38,058 nucleotides of DNA from the NCBI GenBank assembly GCA_003282145.1, contig QBZZ01000021.1, positions 1-38,058 of the forward strand, read 5' to 3'. Both the position numbers and the translations under genes were made by a program. Shown in pieces: positions 13,579-20,775 of the stretch (position 1 is its first letter; the number at the start of each line of letters is the position of its first letter). The notes beneath the pieces are model-generated. The model was not told the DNA's origin. It did not search any database and worked only from the letters and a program-made list of their open reading frames with translations. Source of the DNA: SAR116 cluster bacterium AG-337-N21. Its GTDB lineage: Bacteria > Pseudomonadota > Alphaproteobacteria > Puniceispirillales > Marisalimonadaceae.

Positions 13579-14373
13579 TTAATATTTTACGACTTTCCCC
13601 CAAAGGAATTGTGAGGGACCATAACCAATTCTTGCATCTTCCATTTTCAAGAGACGTGAATAATCGATCATCATATTAATATTTGGGCCATAAATTTCTA
13701 TATATTTACAAAAAACATCTTGATCATCTGCTTCAACCATAAATTGTGATAATTTTAGAGGGCTAATAATCCTATCAATAATATTCCATCTGTAATTTTC
13801 TCTATTCATGTTTTCGGTCAAGCCTTCAGATTCTAATAAGATTTTCCATGAGCCAGCATCTAGAAACTTTTTTGATTGATTAATTAACTTATGAACAAAT
13901 ATAGATTCTTCATTTACTTCGGAGCGAGCAAATGCTACACCGATTTCATTAAGAACTTTAATACCTTTCTTAGAAACTTTTTCAATTAATGTACAAACAT
14001 CGTCATCATCAATTGATCGCGCAATACTTGATATTTCAATTATATCAATACCTAAATCTTGACATTTATTTATATAATCATCAACTGCTTTTCTACCAGC
14101 CATTAAAGCAACGTCCATGACAGGATTGCCAATAGAAACCATAACATTGAATTTTTTACATGTAGTAATGAAATCAATTAAAGATTTTTCATTAATTTGA
14201 GCCGCTTGTTTTCCTGAAAGCTTTAATATGTCAATCATGTCCCCATATGCTTCAAGATAGTCTTCTATGGTTCTACCTACCAACACAGGTGATCTCACAT
14301 AGTTAATACCTGTTTCTCTTGGTTTTTTATCTCTTTTAATAAATGGAAGATAAGAAAATGGTTTTTTGGACAT
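13579..14373 (-). CDS. ComA-like protein 1 (phosphosulfolactate synthase family)
   Basis: 264-residue TIM-barrel protein that matches the ComA family block by block. PRETGINYV (18-26) fits the family's RGLTVV start. DMIDILKLSGKQA (45-57) fits DYIDFVKFGWGTS; IGNPVMDVALMAG, DIIEISSIARSI (110-121), KVLNEIG (139-145), LLESEG (179-184) and YGPNINM follow in order. ComA condenses sulfite with phosphoenolpyruvate in archaeal coenzyme M synthesis. Where I recall EVGKK with catalytic Lys137 in the archaeal enzyme, this protein reads EIGVA, so the same chemistry is doubtful. AAAGGA upstream supports ATG 14371-14373. It lies 16 bases behind the TTT permease and is surely co-transcribed with it; a role in metabolising the imported compound is inferred. 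Confidence 0.75.
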   Translation of the reverse strand: MSKKPFSYLPFIKRDKKPRETGINYVRSPVLVGRTIEDYLEAYGDMIDILKLSGKQAAQINEKSLIDFITTCKKFNVMVSIGNPVMDVALMAGRKAVDDYINKCQDLGIDIIEISSIARSIDDDDVCTLIEKVSKKGIKVLNEIGVAFARSEVNEESIFVHKLINQSKKFLDAGSWKILLESEGLTENMNRENYRWNIIDRIISPLKLSQFMVEADDQDVFCKYIEIYGPNINMMIDYSRLLKMEDARIGYGPSQFLWGKVVKY

Positions 14374-14389
14374 AATATTCCTTTAAATT

Positions 14390-16375
14390 TTAGTTTAATT
14401 CGCCGCCTAACCACCATGGCATATCTATCAACGAACCAATTAGACCATTAGGAAATTGGAGTGTCAACATATGCGATAGAAACCAAAGTACTACTAATAA
14501 TACAAAAGAAATTATAATTGAGATTTTATAATCTCGTTTATCATGAAAAATAATAAAAGTATTAATAAAAATAACAGACGCTATTGGAAAACCTACAATA
14601 AAATTCATTATTAAGTAACCTATAAAGCTTAGGTAATAGAAAAATTGATTATTAAAGCCACTATTTTGTTCATAAATATTTATATTTACAAATTTAACAA
14701 TCGAATATTTTAATAAACGATGTTTATTATAATCAATAATCTTTACAAAAAATATAACCATCAAAAGTATTATTGAAATAAAACATAGACTAACAGGATA
14801 TAAACTTGCCCTATAATCCAAAGACGATATTACTGAAATCATCAACAACGGTAAAATTAGTAAAATTAATACGTAGTAAATTTGACTTTTTTTATTTTTC
14901 AAGGCACTTGCACTATAATTTTGTTTAAATTTTTGCCTTAAAAGTAATAATATGGTTCCAAAACATAAAACTATAAGAATAATTGATACTGGTCTTGTAA
15001 GAAAAGTTAATCCATATACTGCTTGTGTCTGATAACTAAGTAATTCAACTTTAGTAGAAAGAAAGAAACCTATTAATAAAGCAGGTCTAGACCACCCAAA
15101 TGCCTTAAAAGTTATTCCAATTAGCCCAAAACCAAGCAATCCAATAAAATCATACCAATCTCTATTGATATTAAATGTGGCAAAAAATATTAAAACAATC
15201 ATTACAGGTGCAAGTATGTAATATCTCACCAGTGTTAATTTAGAAATATGTGATGCAAATCCGATGCACAATCCAGCACCTAGTATATTAGCAATTGCCA
15301 AAGACCAAATCATGAGGTAAGTAAGATCTAAGTGAGTGGTTACCATTTCTAAACCTGGTTCAATACCAATCAAAATAAAGCCACCTAGGAGTAAAACCTT
15401 ATTTCCAGAACCGGGTATACCAAATAGCAATGTAGGAATTAAAGCACCTCCTTCTTTAGCATTGTTTGCAGATTCTGGTGCTATTACACCTCTTATATCT
15501 CCTTTTCCTATGTCTGAATTATCCTTTAATGTTTGTTTTAAATGACTGTATGCAATCCAATCAACAACTGTTCCACCTAACCCTGGTAGTGCTCCAACAA
15601 TACAACCAATTGAAGAACAACGAAGTACAAGAAACCAATTTTTAAAAACGTCTTTGATACCTCTAAACCAACCTTTTTCATTTTTTAATGCTTTTGCTAT
15701 TGCTCCTTTAGAATCAAGAAGCCCAACAATTTCTGGCAAGGCAAATAAACCTAAACCAACAATTACAATTGGAACTCCCTCAACTAAATAAAGAGTGCCA
15801 AATGTAAATCTTAGATCACCTGTAATGGGAGCTGAACCAATAGAACCAATAATTAAACCTAAAATACACGCAGTAATACCCTTAATAAAATTTTCGCCAG
15901 TTAAAGCGCCAACCATTAGAAGGGCAAGAATAATAAGTAAAAATTGTTCTCCAAATCCAAAGGCCATTATAATTGGTATGGCATAATAAATAGAAATAGA
16001 TAATATAAATGCTCCAAAAACACCTCCCATCAGAGAGGAACAAAAGGCAGCACTTAAAGCTCTTGCAGCCATTCCTTTTTTGGATAAAGGGAAGCCATCC
16101 ATTACAGTCGCTTGAGAACCAGCAGTACCTGGTATCCCCATTAAAACTGCTGGAAATGTATCTGAAGTAGTAGTAGGTGCTAAAACACCTATCATCATTG
16201 CTAATGCATAAGATGGTTCTAGACTATACACAAAAGGCAATACAAGTGCTAATCCGGAAGTTCCTCCTAAACCTGGTAATATGCCAACTACAAGACCTAG
16301 CAAAGTGCCGCTAAATAAAAATAAAAGGTGTGTTAATTCAAATAATTGAAAAAAAGCAGAGACAAATTGTTCCAT
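14390..16375 (-). CDS. TTT-family permease: TctA fused to a TctB-like domain
   Basis: 661 residues, against ~500 for TctA alone. Residues 1 to about 500 are TctA: the GILPGLGGTSGLA repeat half, TTTSDTFPAVLMGIPGTAGSQA, then the second half GALPGLGGTVVDW and TLLFGIPGSGNKVLLLGG. The ~160 extra C-terminal residues hold about four hydrophobic spans with little motif content, as expected of the small subunit TctB, which has no separate gene here. It sits in the inner membrane and imports a small carboxylate using the ion gradient, with TctC supplying ligand from the periplasm. It follows the TctC gene across a hairpin-bearing spacer and precedes ComA-like 1 by 16 bases. Family members import citrate, tartrate, sulfolactate and other acids, so the substrate is open. 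Confidence 0.9.
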   Translation of the reverse strand: MEQFVSAFFQLFELTHLLFLFSGTLLGLVVGILPGLGGTSGLALVLPFVYSLEPSYALAMMIGVLAPTTTSDTFPAVLMGIPGTAGSQATVMDGFPLSKKGMAARALSAAFCSSLMGGVFGAFILSISIYYAIPIIMAFGFGEQFLLIILALLMVGALTGENFIKGITACILGLIIGSIGSAPITGDLRFTFGTLYLVEGVPIVIVGLGLFALPEIVGLLDSKGAIAKALKNEKGWFRGIKDVFKNWFLVLRCSSIGCIVGALPGLGGTVVDWIAYSHLKQTLKDNSDIGKGDIRGVIAPESANNAKEGGALIPTLLFGIPGSGNKVLLLGGFILIGIEPGLEMVTTHLDLTYLMIWSLAIANILGAGLCIGFASHISKLTLVRYYILAPVMIVLIFFATFNINRDWYDFIGLLGFGLIGITFKAFGWSRPALLIGFFLSTKVELLSYQTQAVYGLTFLTRPVSIILIVLCFGTILLLLRQKFKQNYSASALKNKKSQIYYVLILLILPLLMISVISSLDYRASLYPVSLCFISIILLMVIFFVKIIDYNKHRLLKYSIVKFVNINIYEQNSGFNNQFFYYLSFIGYLIMNFIVGFPIASVIFINTFIIFHDKRDYKISIIISFVLLVVLWFLSHMLTLQFPNGLIGSLIDMPWWLGGELN

Positions 16376-16390
16376 ATAAAAACATTCATT

Positions 16391-16414
16391 AACTGCCGTT
16401 TATAAACGGCAGTT
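16391..16414 (-). promoter_or_regulatory. Stem-loop between TctC and TctA genes
   Basis: A perfect 24-base palindrome lies in the 50-base spacer: a 10-base-pair stem from 16391-16400 and 16405-16414 with a TATA loop. In the direction of the transcript only a short T run follows at a distance. It looks more like an mRNA-stabilising or partial termination element, as often found after a binding-protein gene, than a full terminator. It would let the cell make more TctC than permease. Confidence 0.75.
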
Positions 16415-16425
16415 ATTTTTAAAAC

Positions 16426-17502
16426 TTACTTAACTCTATAAGTAAATTTATGTTTCTTTAAAACCTTGTTAAGCTGTTTTTTTGTATTGTCAGAAAAAAT
16501 AGCTGCCTTTTTTATTATAGCACCAGCTTCTTCGCCAACAGTCAAAGGATATGGTCCTAATACCTTTGTTGCTTTTGCTTTGAAGTCAGGATCATTTACC
16601 ATTTTTTTTGCGGCATCTCTATACACTACAACAATATCGTCTGGTGTGTTTTCAGGTAATAACATTGATTTTGATGCCTGAGACCATGCAGCTGCAATAG
16701 AATAGAAAGCTTCCAAATCATCCCCAGATAGTTTTTTACCATTAACTTTTTCGTACATCTCAGAAAATGTAGGTGCATTTGGAGCCAATGGATTTCTTGA
16801 AATATTGCCATTTGCGTCAACAAGCCCAAGTGTCATAATATCTAAAATTTTGCCTTTTTCAATTTGGGGCTTAACATTTTTTATATATTTTGCTGCACCC
16901 TGCGAATTAAGATGTATTTCTCCTCTTTGGAATGCTTGCCATGCACCTGACGAGGATAATCCTGGTATAGGCTTAGCTCCTTTGATACCAATTTTATCAA
17001 AAACCCAAATATGAAATAGATCAGCAGAAGCAGGAGTTTTTAAACCATATAAAACAAGTTTTCTCTTTTGTAATTTACTAATATCGTGTGCTTCATCTAT
17101 CAAATCGCTTCTTGTAAACCAATGTGTATTTTGAGGTAACAAAAGTACTGGTTTATAAGAACTTAAGTTATATTTAACTAGAGGATTACCTGTTGCCACA
17201 TTAACAATTACGGATGTAGAGCAGCCAAAAATATATGTGCCATCTGGCTTAGCATTTTTTTGAAAATAATTTGATCCTTTGATAGCGCCACCACCTGGAA
17301 TATGCATAATCTTAATTGTAGGATTACCTGGTAGATATTTTGTTAAAAATGGTTCAATAAACCTAGAAAATCTACTGGTACCACCACCTTCCTTAAAAGG
17401 GACAACCCAAGTAATAGTTTTACCTGAAAAATCAACTTTAGCGTGGGCATTTAAAGAAAATGCAAATAATCCAGCTAATAAAAGTATAAAAAATCTGAAC
17501 AT
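16426..17502 (-). CDS. TctC-like periplasmic solute-binding protein
   Basis: 358-residue extracytoplasmic receptor of the TTT system. A clear signal peptide (basic start, hydrophobic LLLAGLFAF core, cleavage after LNAHA, about residue 21) leads into FSGKTITWVVPFKEGGGTSR, the typical first strand and ligand loop. HIPGGGAIKGSNYF and GTYIFGCSTS follow. The second binding loop and the C-terminal helices are normal. AAGGAGG just upstream of ATG 17500-17502 is the strongest ribosome site in the area, fitting a highly made binding protein. It heads the minus-strand operon TctC, TctAB, ComA-like 1, and is divergent from ComA-like 2. Ligand unknown; the family binds small di- and tricarboxylates and some sulfonates. 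Confidence 0.93.
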   Translation of the reverse strand: MFRFFILLLAGLFAFSLNAHAKVDFSGKTITWVVPFKEGGGTSRFSRFIEPFLTKYLPGNPTIKIMHIPGGGAIKGSNYFQKNAKPDGTYIFGCSTSVIVNVATGNPLVKYNLSSYKPVLLLPQNTHWFTRSDLIDEAHDISKLQKRKLVLYGLKTPASADLFHIWVFDKIGIKGAKPIPGLSSSGAWQAFQRGEIHLNSQGAAKYIKNVKPQIEKGKILDIMTLGLVDANGNISRNPLAPNAPTFSEMYEKVNGKKLSGDDLEAFYSIAAAWSQASKSMLLPENTPDDIVVVYRDAAKKMVNDPDFKAKATKVLGPYPLTVGEEAGAIIKKAAIFSDNTKKQLNKVLKKHKFTYRVK

Positions 17503-17637
17503 AACTCCTCCTTAAGTATTCATTAATAAGTTAAATAATTAAATCATGTTTTCAGATATAATAAAATCAAATAATTACATTGATTTAAAATTATATAAGA
17601 TTTGAAAAACTTAGAAAATTAATATATTTAATTTAAT
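17503..17637. promoter_or_regulatory. Divergent promoter region between TctC and ComA-like 2
   Basis: A 135-base, very AT-rich spacer separates two genes that point away from each other, so it must hold promoters for both. The many overlapping TATAAT- and TTAAAT-like words prevent a reliable choice of -10 and -35 boxes. No regulator gene sits beside it and no strong palindrome is evident. Confidence 0.5.
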
Positions 17638-18456
17638 ATGGTCAATAGCATCCCATTAAACACTTTTCCTAGGCTAAAATTACCTAAAAAGCCAAGAAAG
17701 CTTAGACAAACGTGGCTTAAAGACGTTGGATTTCACGAAGCTCCTCATTATTTAGAAAGATTGGGATTAAATGAATTAGAAGATTTTTTAGAAGTCGCAG
17801 CTGATAGAATTGATTATGTTAAATTTACAACCCCACAAGTTTTATACTCTCCTCATGAATGGTTGAATAAAAAAATAAGATTGTACAAAAAATATGATGT
17901 AATACCCTTTTTAGACCATACATACTTCAAGTTTGCTTACAAAAAAAATTGTGTTGAACATGCAATCGAACATGGAAAAGCGCTTGGATTTGATAGTATG
18001 GAATTTATGAATACTGGAGGTGAAGTTTCTGAAAAGCAATGGTCAGATTGGAGAAAATTATCAAAAAAAGTTTCAATAAGATTTATGTATGAACATCATC
18101 CATTAAGAAATTGGAAACATGGAAGTCCAGATATACCTTCTACATCAGAAGAAATATTAAAAACTGCAGATCCTTTTTTAAATGATGGTGCAGATTTTGT
18201 TATATTAGATCACGAGGAGTTTGAATTGCAAAATGATAATGCAAAGAATGTTTTTGATAAAGTTATTAACAACTTGGGATTAGAGAGGCTATGTTTTGAG
18301 GTTACCTCACCTCGTGAAGGATTAAAACAATGGCATAAAGACTTATCTGCCTATATTAAATTATTCGGACAAGACTGTAATGTATGTAATATTATGCCAA
18401 GTCAGACTCTACAAGTAGAACCATTAAGAGATGAAAACTTATTAAGACAATTCTGA
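17638..18456 (+). CDS. ComA-like protein 2 (divergent phosphosulfolactate synthase family)
   Basis: 272 residues, more divergent from ComA than its neighbour but with the same block order: RQTWLKDVGF (23-32), LEDFLEVAADRIDYVKF (47-63), FLDHTYFKFAY (91-101), GFDSMEF (117-123), RFMYEHHP (148-155), FVILDHEEFE (187-196), LCFEV (218-222) and LFGQDCNVCNI (242-252). At the position of the recalled ComA lysine it has Pro-Leu after EHH, and several added histidines (94, 153, 154, 192) could bind metal. It is therefore likely a TIM-barrel enzyme with altered chemistry. ATG 17638 has no clear ribosome site. It is transcribed divergently from the TctC operon, so the pair of ComA-like proteins brackets the transporter. 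Alternative reading: an unrelated sugar-phosphate-isomerase-like TIM barrel. Confidence 0.65.
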   Translation: MVNSIPLNTFPRLKLPKKPRKLRQTWLKDVGFHEAPHYLERLGLNELEDFLEVAADRIDYVKFTTPQVLYSPHEWLNKKIRLYKKYDVIPFLDHTYFKFAYKKNCVEHAIEHGKALGFDSMEFMNTGGEVSEKQWSDWRKLSKKVSIRFMYEHHPLRNWKHGSPDIPSTSEEILKTADPFLNDGADFVILDHEEFELQNDNAKNVFDKVINNLGLERLCFEVTSPREGLKQWHKDLSAYIKLFGQDCNVCNIMPSQTLQVEPLRDENLLRQF

Positions 18457-18878: not shown

Positions 18879-20567
18879 CTAAAAAAGTTCATTAGGTGCA
18901 GGTTCTGCTGCTTGAATTATTCCATCTGAATTAGGAGCGGCACTTCCAATTGTTATCAAAGAAAGTCTATCTTTATGTTTTGAATATTTTTCTAACCATG
19001 CAACAGGATCACGTTTTTTTAATTTTTTATTAATTTTATATAAAAAATCTGCAATCAGTTTCTCTAATATTTCAGTTTTGATTGTAGAAACTTTGTGTAA
19101 AGCTCTAGCTGTATCAATGTGACGTGCAACCTTCTTTTCTTTATCTCTTCCCTGATAAACTTTCTCATAAAGTTCTGAACCAGGTAATGCCTGAGCAATA
19201 AAAACACCAATACTATTTAGATAAATGTTTTCAACAAACTTAAAACCATCTTTGATGTCTTTTACAGTCTCATTCGGCATGCCAACAACTAATGTTGCAT
19301 GGACTAAAATATTTCTTTTTCCTAGATATTCAGCTAAATCTGGAACTTTTGATAAGTCAACAGGTTTTCTATGTTCTTCTTTAAGGACCTTTTCTGAGCC
19401 ACTATCAATTGAAAGTGTAATTTGATACATACCAGAATCTATCATTAAATCTATCAAGTCCTTATTTAATGTGTTTATCATTATGCCATTTGGAGTACAC
19501 CATTGGAGATTTAATTCTTTTAATTTTGTGAATAATTCAATCGACCGTTTTCTATCAAATGTAAGGTTGTCATCAGCAAACTGAATCTCATCAATGTTAA
19601 AAAGTTTTTTATAAAGCTTTATTTCATCAATAATATTGTCGGGGCTTCTTGAACGAAATTTTTTATTAAAATTTGTACTAGCACAAAATGTACATCCCAC
19701 TGGACATCCCCGAGATGTATATACTTGCATAACCCTTTTGCCTCTTGGAAATGGTGAAAAAGGTACGTTAAAGGAAAAGTATTTTTCCATTGGCAATTGA
19801 GTATAGTCAGGAAAAGGCATTTTATCCAAATTTTCAATAACTTCTATTTGATGATTAATAAACATATGGCTTTCAGTTATGCCACAAAGTCCATCTGAAT
19901 TTGTATCAACGAAACCATCGTTTAAATTGTTTAAAAATTCAACTGCTCGTTTTTCTCCTTCACCACGTATTATATAATCTATAATAATACCATTTTCATT
20001 GGCCTCTTCAAAAACTTCATTAGGATAAATAGAACTATGAATTCCACCTGCAACAACAATAATTTGGTTGTCAATTTCTTTAACTAATTCTGCAACTTTG
20101 TATAACGAAGGAAGATCTGATGAATATACAATAGATAGGAATACAACGTCAGGCATTGTTTTTTCTATTCTGCTCTTTATTTTATCTAGAGGTAATCCGT
20201 ACGACCAATTTTTATTTGGTAATGGTTCTTCATTTTCAGGGCCTTCAACTACACAATCTAATATTTCGTAAGGTATATTTTCTGATTTCAGTTCTCCAGC
20301 TATGTAAGCCAAACCTAGAGGTGGTATAACACGTTTAACAGTACCTTCAGACAAAATTATTGGAGGAAGTATAAGCATTGGAAGTGGAAATTTGCCTTTA
20401 TTAACTTTTCTAATTTCTGGAACTTTATTTTGTTTTTTTTTATAAATATTACTTGCTCTGTCTAGAGACATTGTTTCTTTTTTATTAGCTAAGTAATCAT
20501 ATAAACCACTTTCTTTTGGAATGTTTTCTTCTAACAATTTAAATTTTATTTTTTTTTCAGAAGTCAT
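18879..20567 (-). CDS. Radical SAM protein with N-terminal B12-binding-type domain
   Basis: 562 residues from ATG 20565-20567; a TTG 15 bases upstream is less likely. An N-terminal ~60-residue extension leads into a cobalamin-binding Rossmann domain (LPPIILSEGTVKRVIPPLGL, LDCVVEGP, DVVFLSIVYSSDLP, IIVVAGGIHSSIYP, RGEGE). The radical SAM barrel follows, with CPVGCTFC supplying Cys288, Cys292 and Cys295 for the 4Fe-4S cluster. FADDNLTFD and SIDSGSEKVL come next. This is the BchE/class B methyltransferase-like architecture, which methylates, cyclises or rearranges unactivated carbons. No partner gene shows the substrate. It stands alone between two tRNA-Val remnants, suggesting acquisition as a unit. 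Confidence 0.92.
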   Translation of the reverse strand: MTSEKKIKFKLLEENIPKESGLYDYLANKKETMSLDRASNIYKKKQNKVPEIRKVNKGKFPLPMLILPPIILSEGTVKRVIPPLGLAYIAGELKSENIPYEILDCVVEGPENEEPLPNKNWSYGLPLDKIKSRIEKTMPDVVFLSIVYSSDLPSLYKVAELVKEIDNQIIVVAGGIHSSIYPNEVFEEANENGIIIDYIIRGEGEKRAVEFLNNLNDGFVDTNSDGLCGITESHMFINHQIEVIENLDKMPFPDYTQLPMEKYFSFNVPFSPFPRGKRVMQVYTSRGCPVGCTFCASTNFNKKFRSRSPDNIIDEIKLYKKLFNIDEIQFADDNLTFDRKRSIELFTKLKELNLQWCTPNGIMINTLNKDLIDLMIDSGMYQITLSIDSGSEKVLKEEHRKPVDLSKVPDLAEYLGKRNILVHATLVVGMPNETVKDIKDGFKFVENIYLNSIGVFIAQALPGSELYEKVYQGRDKEKKVARHIDTARALHKVSTIKTEILEKLIADFLYKINKKLKKRDPVAWLEKYSKHKDRLSLITIGSAAPNSDGIIQAAEPAPNELF

Positions 20568-20775
20568 TTTTAAACCGTTCAATCTATTATTTAAATATAC
20601 ATTAGAGGCTTTTTATATAATTAAATTTTAAAATAGTCAATTTATGTTACATTTAAACAGCTTAGTATTATTTTGACATTTAATTTCCTTAATAAATATT
20701 TAATAATTTATAGATGACATAGTATAAATTTTTGAAATTTTGCTTCTTAATTAAAATTAATAAAGCTTATTTACA

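Follow-up and report, generated by a model that had tools for sequence, protein, structure and literature searches.

What do two proteins of the ComA fold do on either side of a tripartite tricarboxylate transporter (TTT) in a marine alphaproteobacterium? The question is raised by a 38,058-nucleotide stretch of DNA from the SAR116 cluster bacterium AG-337-N21 (contig QBZZ01000021.1, positions 1 to 38,058; hereafter the window, which denotes this whole stretch), in which a three-gene operon on the reverse strand faces a divergently transcribed gene on the forward strand. The operon encodes a TctC-like periplasmic binding protein (16426..17502), the membrane part TctA, probably fused to TctB (TctAB, 14390..16375), and, as its last gene, a ComA-family TIM barrel (ComA1, 13579..14373), while the divergent gene encodes a second and distinct ComA-family TIM barrel (ComA2, 17638..18456). 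The open reading frames lie in the order given by the first-pass annotation of this DNA, with ComA1 16 bp behind TctAB, TctC next after a gap of 50 bp, and ComA2 divergent from TctC across 135 bp (17503..17637). We favor, with moderate confidence, an interpretation in which the four genes form one module that takes up a hexuronic (sugar) acid and converts it, and we place far less confidence in any single reaction for ComA1 or ComA2.

To survey the neighborhood of ComA1, an alignment of ComA1-type proteins was scanned over 84,980 species genomes, and the loci of the best 80 of the 440 relatives obtained were analyzed. TctAB lies immediately upstream of ComA1 in all 14 loci with 45-95% ComA1 identity, compared with none of the 66 more distant loci; the 14 TTT-linked loci include near relatives and are not 14 independent events. 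ComA2 stands beside the module in 11 of these loci, and the remaining three (L034, L040, and L042) are on contigs that end within ~0.75 kb. The lack of a conserved link to TctC and TctA, which the first-pass annotation had named as grounds for abandoning its proposal, was thus not seen, and the uptake-and-catabolism role that it had suggested is compatible with the findings. The module is hosted by SAR116 bacteria, Rhodobiaceae, marine gammaproteobacteria, and one betaproteobacterial record. It is also present in a record labeled as a Pacearchaeota archaeon (L034, ComA1 identity 69%), where the archaeal label is probably a binning error.

Among 37 genomes of the window's genus, PF02679 matches occur in seven, with both proteins in five and a single one in G020 and in G025, where the contigs are 3.6 kb and 3.2 kb long, respectively. 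Among another 24 genomes of the order, three have one PF02679 match each, of the TTT-linked type in G051 and of a different, solitary type in G048 and G055. A profile search for ComA2 in 385 alphaproteobacterial genomes matched three, the window's own and two weakly. A ComA2 relative with 48.5% identity is also encoded on the Allorhizobium ampelinum plasmid pAtS4c (L024 11923-12795), where the genes for a GntR regulator and an ABC transporter of the sugar type precede it; ComA2 therefore also pairs with another carrier.

In relatives, the class of the substrate is indicated by the genes that accompany the module. In a gammaproteobacterial locus (L035), MR_MLE and Amidohydro_2 genes follow ComA2 on the same strand, and genes for a sulfatase, an SDR dehydrogenase, and an HpaI-type aldolase lie behind ComA1. 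The best PDB matches of the MR_MLE and Amidohydro_2 proteins are 4ggb (2e-158) and 4mup (3e-83), which we take to be the Agrobacterium enzymes Gci and Gli, respectively. The dehydrogenase is best matched by the uronate dehydrogenase (Udh) 3rft (8e-73), and the PDB matches of the aldolase are HpcH/HpaI aldolases, GarL (1dxe) among them. In the parts of the review available to us, Udh, Gli, and Gci constitute an oxidative hexuronate route (PMC6353982). The gene order of L035 is retained without the sulfatase in L038 and L041, and in L037 the contig ends inside the SDR gene, the remainder being found on another contig. Of the 57 genomes around G442, four have ComA2, and strong Udh matches are found in those same four.

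A second set of uronate genes accompanies the module in other hosts. The gene for the uronate isomerase UxaC lies 10 bp behind ComA1 in a SAR116 relative (L033), and UxaC is also found in G051, G443, and G444, each with UxuA; in G051 a gene for a fructuronate reductase-like protein, UxuB, directly follows UxaC. Outside the window's genus, all eight module genomes tested have either UxaC (four) or the Udh cluster (four), L034 and L042 not being among the loci tested at the genome level. A sulfatase with a CxPxR motif is encoded behind ComA1 in L035, L037, and L022 (the locus of G051), and no obvious signal peptide was detected in any of the three, so that the substrate may be a sulfated uronate. 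These associations would be best explained by an unusual hexuronate, sulfated in some cases, and less well by a small sulfonate. The first-pass annotation had instead proposed a C3-C4 acid, possibly a sulfonate; this proposal is not supported by the linked genes of the relatives (Udh, the Gli and Gci relatives, the KDG-type aldolase, and UxaC), which act on C6 uronic acids, and by the sulfur link in relatives, which is a sulfate-ester sulfatase and no sulfonate enzyme. In L038 (10795-11021) and L041 (8628-8853), a short piece resembling the start of a sulfatase gene was recognized by eye between ComA1 and the SDR gene, at the place where L035 has the full sulfatase. An alginate-lyase-like protein encoded 624 bp behind ComA1 in L034 had a borderline score (22.5 versus 22.2 bits) and a lipoprotein-like start and was not counted.

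The two transcription units also appear to be connected through regulation. A LacI gene is located between ComA2 and TctC in eight loci (L032, L035-L039, L041, and L043), and all eight have a LacI-type operator before ComA2 and another before TctC. Perfect 14-bp palindromes occupy both places in six of these loci, and a perfect and a one-mismatch copy do so in the other two. The palindrome TGATAACGTTATCA precedes both genes in L032 and L043; L036 and L039 have a perfect copy of it before ComA2 and a copy with a single mismatch before TctC. A different palindrome, TGAGACCGGTCTCA, is found before both ComA2 and TctC in L035, L037, L038, and L041. Shuffled sequences of the two loci tested contained on average 0.25 (L035) and 0.3 (L043) such palindromes per locus. 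This anatomy suggests that ComA2 and the transporter-ComA1 operon form one LacI-type regulon in these relatives. Neither LacI nor a LacI-type operator was seen in the window, L030, L031, or L033, and the 135-bp intergenic region of the window thus differs from that of its LacI-bearing relatives. Within the genus, the LacI and ComA2 part exists in two forms, one in L032, L043, L036, and L039 and the other in the window, L030, L031, and L033; ComA2 is ~46-50% identical between the two, TctC, TctAB, and ComA1 are >90% identical, and the pattern looks like a cassette exchange.

The characterized ComA enzyme adds sulfite to phosphoenolpyruvate, with its chemistry at the carbon beside the carboxylate. 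Both proteins of the window are ComA family members by profile and by fold, as had been claimed from the sequence, and no unrelated TIM-barrel family replaced this assignment: they match PF02679 with 172.5 bits (ComA1) and 148.0 bits (ComA2) at a Pfam cut-off of 25.2, and the window's genome (assembly 82% complete, 2.04 Mb) has no PF02679 match besides them. Their AlphaFold2 models have pLDDT values of 87.3 and 87.0, respectively, and the ComA of M. jannaschii (1qwg) is within the top two Foldseek matches of each, with a TMq of 0.83 for ComA1 and 0.71 for ComA2. In a tree of 37 hand-chosen rows, the two proteins belong to separate groups, with support of 100/99 for the TTT-linked ComA1 group and 100/100 for the ComA2 group.

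Several lines of evidence separate these proteins from phosphosulfolactate synthase. The NCBIfam equivalog TIGR03849 gives 76.4 bits for ComA1 and 63 bits for ComA2, both far under its cut-off of 280, which may be strict for bacterial proteins, the model being named arch_ComA. The ComA proteins of M. jannaschii and B. subtilis have in common a lysine after the fifth-strand glutamate, a lysine after the seventh-strand glutamate, and an RESG(K/T)G loop after the sixth-strand glutamate; we assume that Lys137, Lys209 (M. jannaschii numbering), and this loop are catalytic in ComA. None of the 40 rows of the ComA1-type alignment has a lysine at either position: Q, A, or E occupies the first, and P, Q, or in a single row R occupies the last. 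The same alignment also lacks the loop. This residue comparison is confined to ComA1, the ComA2 alignment being gapped at these places. A search for ComB (PF04029) yielded no match in the 14 module genomes, in agreement with the earlier statement that no other coenzyme M genes lie nearby; the control search matched seven of 14 known genomes, B. subtilis and M. jannaschii among them. Coenzyme M or sulfonate synthesis was rejected on the basis of the TIGR03849 scores, the ComA1 residues, and the missing ComB, and by the tests run neither protein would be a phosphosulfolactate synthase, although both are ComA by family and fold.

The barrel itself retains acidic positions. Residues E113, E143, E181, E214, and D237 are invariant in 40 of 40 ComA1-type rows, and E122, E152, D191, E193, and E221, together with H94, H153, H154, and H192, are invariant in 12 of 12 ComA2 rows, two rows holding unknown residues having been omitted from the latter alignment. 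Such an acidic ladder is what would be expected of an active metal site, and ComA1 is likely a metal-dependent sugar-acid enzyme.

From the family, the fold, the conserved layout, the shared operators, and the linked uronate genes of relatives, we infer what the substrate is, in which direction the module runs, and which reaction the two ComA-like proteins carry out, as follows. TctC and TctAB, judged by their families, would import the acid, and in some relatives an intracellular sulfatase would take off a sulfate ester. ComA1, in most relatives with the help of ComA2, would then turn the unusual hexuronate into D-glucuronate or D-galacturonate. The product would enter the uronate dehydrogenase, lactone isomerase, cycloisomerase, and aldolase steps in the gammaproteobacteria, and UxaC and UxuA in several alphaproteobacteria. 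ComA makes or stabilizes an enolate adjacent to a carboxylate, and in a uronate the equivalent carbon would be C5. A ComA relative might abstract the proton from this carbon and put it back from the opposite side, resulting in a 5-epimerization. Alternatively, the chemistry could be a sugar isomerization like that of the ketose epimerases, the next fold neighbors of the models. A TTT binding protein for alginate oligosaccharides has been published for Vibrio, according to the accessible parts of that report (PMC13390454), and TTT carriers can thus serve uronates.

A number of observations weigh against the hexuronate interpretation. UxaC and UxuA were found in none of the six genomes with the module that belong to the window's genus, which is weak evidence because these genomes are 60-90% complete. 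A Udh-like protein is encoded in only three of the six (G000, G020, and G034), with 34-37% identity, and in G020 and G000 its gene stands in another operon. The window's genome holds a 37% Udh-like protein and broad-family relatives only, and uronate genes are not part of the window's cluster. Gci-like and aldolase-like relatives are present in all 14 genomes searched, but they belong to broad families, and in the window's genus their genes lie elsewhere than the module cluster; the Gci-like protein of the genus also scores slightly higher against the galactonate dehydratase 5olc than against 4ggb. Beyond the genus, the four gammaproteobacteria, being closely related, may represent a single event, G469 encodes a 43% Udh-like protein and lacks ComA2, and G051, which is 99% complete, has one PF02679 protein only and no ComA2, indicating that ComA2 is not always needed. 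Two further candidates were considered and set aside as indicators of the route. The idea that the genus has a conserved Gci locus was dropped, because the 40% Gci-like gene (L150), which encodes the protein with the slight preference for 5olc noted above, stands among unrelated genes. Galactarate dehydratase relatives (PF04295) occur in ten of the 14 genomes, those of the window's genus included, and are absent from the four gammaproteobacteria; the four such proteins in the NCBIfam scan had galactarate dehydratase as their sole match, below the cut-off, and the family is too broad to decide.

The lack of UxaC and UxuA in the genus also speaks for a module for small hydroxy or tricarboxylic acids, with ComA1, like perhaps its distant relatives next to MmgE/PrpD, acting on a citrate-like or other hydroxy acid and the uronate genes being a local add-on. 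TTT carriers often take di- and tricarboxylates, and among the more distant ComA1-like genes an MmgE/PrpD gene lies directly upstream in 48 of 66 loci, which counts against a hexuronate and hints at other acids. On the Bradyrhizobium guangxiense plasmid p53363 (L029 1-8678), a TTT binding protein, MmgE/PrpD, PrpF, and a ComA-like gene are grouped, and a sister pair of loci (L082 and L090) lies near TctC-like genes. However, in the 14 TTT-linked loci it is TctAB and not PrpD that stands directly upstream of ComA1, the regulators are of the LacI type in eight of these 14, and uronate genes in two alternative forms accompany the module in each of the eight genomes tested outside the genus. We therefore consider a hydroxy-acid module rather unlikely. 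The two-gene arrangement of MmgE/PrpD followed by a ComA1-like gene was observed in many phyla (L044-L109), and the pair also occurs on annotated plasmids (L025-L027) of Salinibacter, Methylosinus, and Haladaptatus.

A sulfonate module, in which sulfolactate or another C3 sulfonate would enter through the TTT and the ComA chemistry would run backward in the ComA-like proteins with release of sulfite, is more doubtful still. It draws on the membership of the ComA family and on the sulfosugar route of Paracoccus, which, in the parts of the article available to us, uses the families of the gammaproteobacterial cluster, namely a PF13378/PF02746 dehydratase and a PF03328 aldolase (PMC12421959). Against it stand the 76 and 63 bits obtained with an equivalog cut-off of 280, the absence from ComA1 of the two lysines and the RESG loop of the M. 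jannaschii and B. subtilis enzymes, and the lack of ComB in all 14 genomes, as well as the L035 dehydrogenase, which is closest to uronate dehydrogenase, and UxaC, which is found in four of the 14 genomes. Least probable is a non-catalytic, protective, or regulatory role of the ComA-like proteins beside the transporter, for which a branch lacking known activity and the altered phosphosulfolactate synthase residues of ComA1 would speak, and against which the acidic residues are invariant in every ComA1-type and ComA2 row.

Returning to the hexuronate module, its most specific version would make ComA1 a 5-epimerase of free hexuronates that converts L-iduronate to D-glucuronate after sulfate removal, with ComA2 handling a second epimer or form; as stated, this version is improbable. 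L-Iduronate is found in sulfated algal or animal polysaccharides. Its catabolism was called not clear in the accessible parts of a 2019 review (PMC6353982), and a 5-epimerase, if true, would fill this gap and add a new reaction to the ComA fold. Our literature search, in which subscription journals were thinly covered, recognized no description of ComA-like proteins with TTT or uronate genes. The parts of the module are of known kinds, and their union and the sugar-acid role for ComA-like proteins appear to be new. In annotation, PF02679 proteins commonly carry the name phosphosulfolactate synthase, as do 29 of 29 annotated plasmid matches, one further record being without annotation. For one branch of PF02679, the module proposed here would offer another role that can be tested, in the breakdown of sugar acids by abundant ocean bacteria, and it would supply a candidate class of substrates, a regulator and operators, and, in relatives, a complete downstream pathway.

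The transporter parts of the window were assigned with different degrees of certainty. The TctA-TctB fusion proposed earlier holds for the TctA part, where PF01970 matches residues 17-434 with 389 bits and covers the first two thirds of the protein only; the C-terminus has no Pfam match, and hydrophobic segments recognized there by hydropathy are the sole basis for a TctB part, so that TctAB is probably TctA fused to TctB. In G035, TctAB (L018 5583-8009) has ~147 extra residues inside the TctA part (808 versus 661 residues); either an insertion or a join made in assembly could account for them. The TctC protein had no match in a Pfam search at an E-value of 1e-3; its name is supported by its position beside TctA and by weak matches among PDB sequences, namely the Bug/TctC proteins 2dvz (1.6e-4) and 6hke (3.4e-4), each at 2e-4 with a 13-row profile. 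An N-terminal segment is followed by AHA and KVDF, and ligand prediction from motifs was not decisive. Adjoining ComA2, positions 18879-20582 of the window encode a B12-binding radical SAM protein that matches NCBIfam NF038361 (the Sden_1168 family, named P-methyltransferase) with 720.7 bits versus a cut-off of 575; the gene is not at the matching place in L016, L017, or L023.

Compared with known systems, the module resembles each in part. With the ComA proteins of M. jannaschii (1qwg) and B. subtilis (1u83) it shares the Pfam family, the fold, and the barrel acidic residues kept in ComA1, and it differs in the sub-cut-off equivalog scores, in the ComA1 positions corresponding to Lys137, Lys209, and the RESG loop, and in hosts without ComB. 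The D-psicose/D-tagatose 3-epimerases are the next fold neighbors of both models, at a TMq of about 0.4-0.5, the level of any TIM barrel, and they show weak sequence matches (NCBIfam, 9e-4; PDB 8xix, 2.4e-5 with the 40-row profile), whereas the D-psicose 3-epimerase model NF051856 gives 19.1 bits at a cut-off of 300. The Agrobacterium Udh-Gli-Gci route, as far as the available parts of its description go (PMC6353982), has close relatives of all three enzymes in L035; the module differs from that route by its additional TTT carrier, sulfatase, and pair of ComA-like proteins and by the presence of an HpaI-type aldolase, and the cluster of the window's genus does not contain these enzymes. For the TTT uptake of alginate oligosaccharides in Vibrio sp. 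C42, the accessible parts of the report mention no ComA-like gene (PMC13390454). The usual proline of the binding loop is a glycine in the Vibrio TTT-C, as described there; the loop of the window's TctC, aligned by eye against this description, reads GGGTS, with a serine in place of the aspartate after the threonine. According to the same parts of that report, the Vibrio system resembles the module proposed here in that a marine bacterium takes up molecules containing uronates through a TTT carrier.

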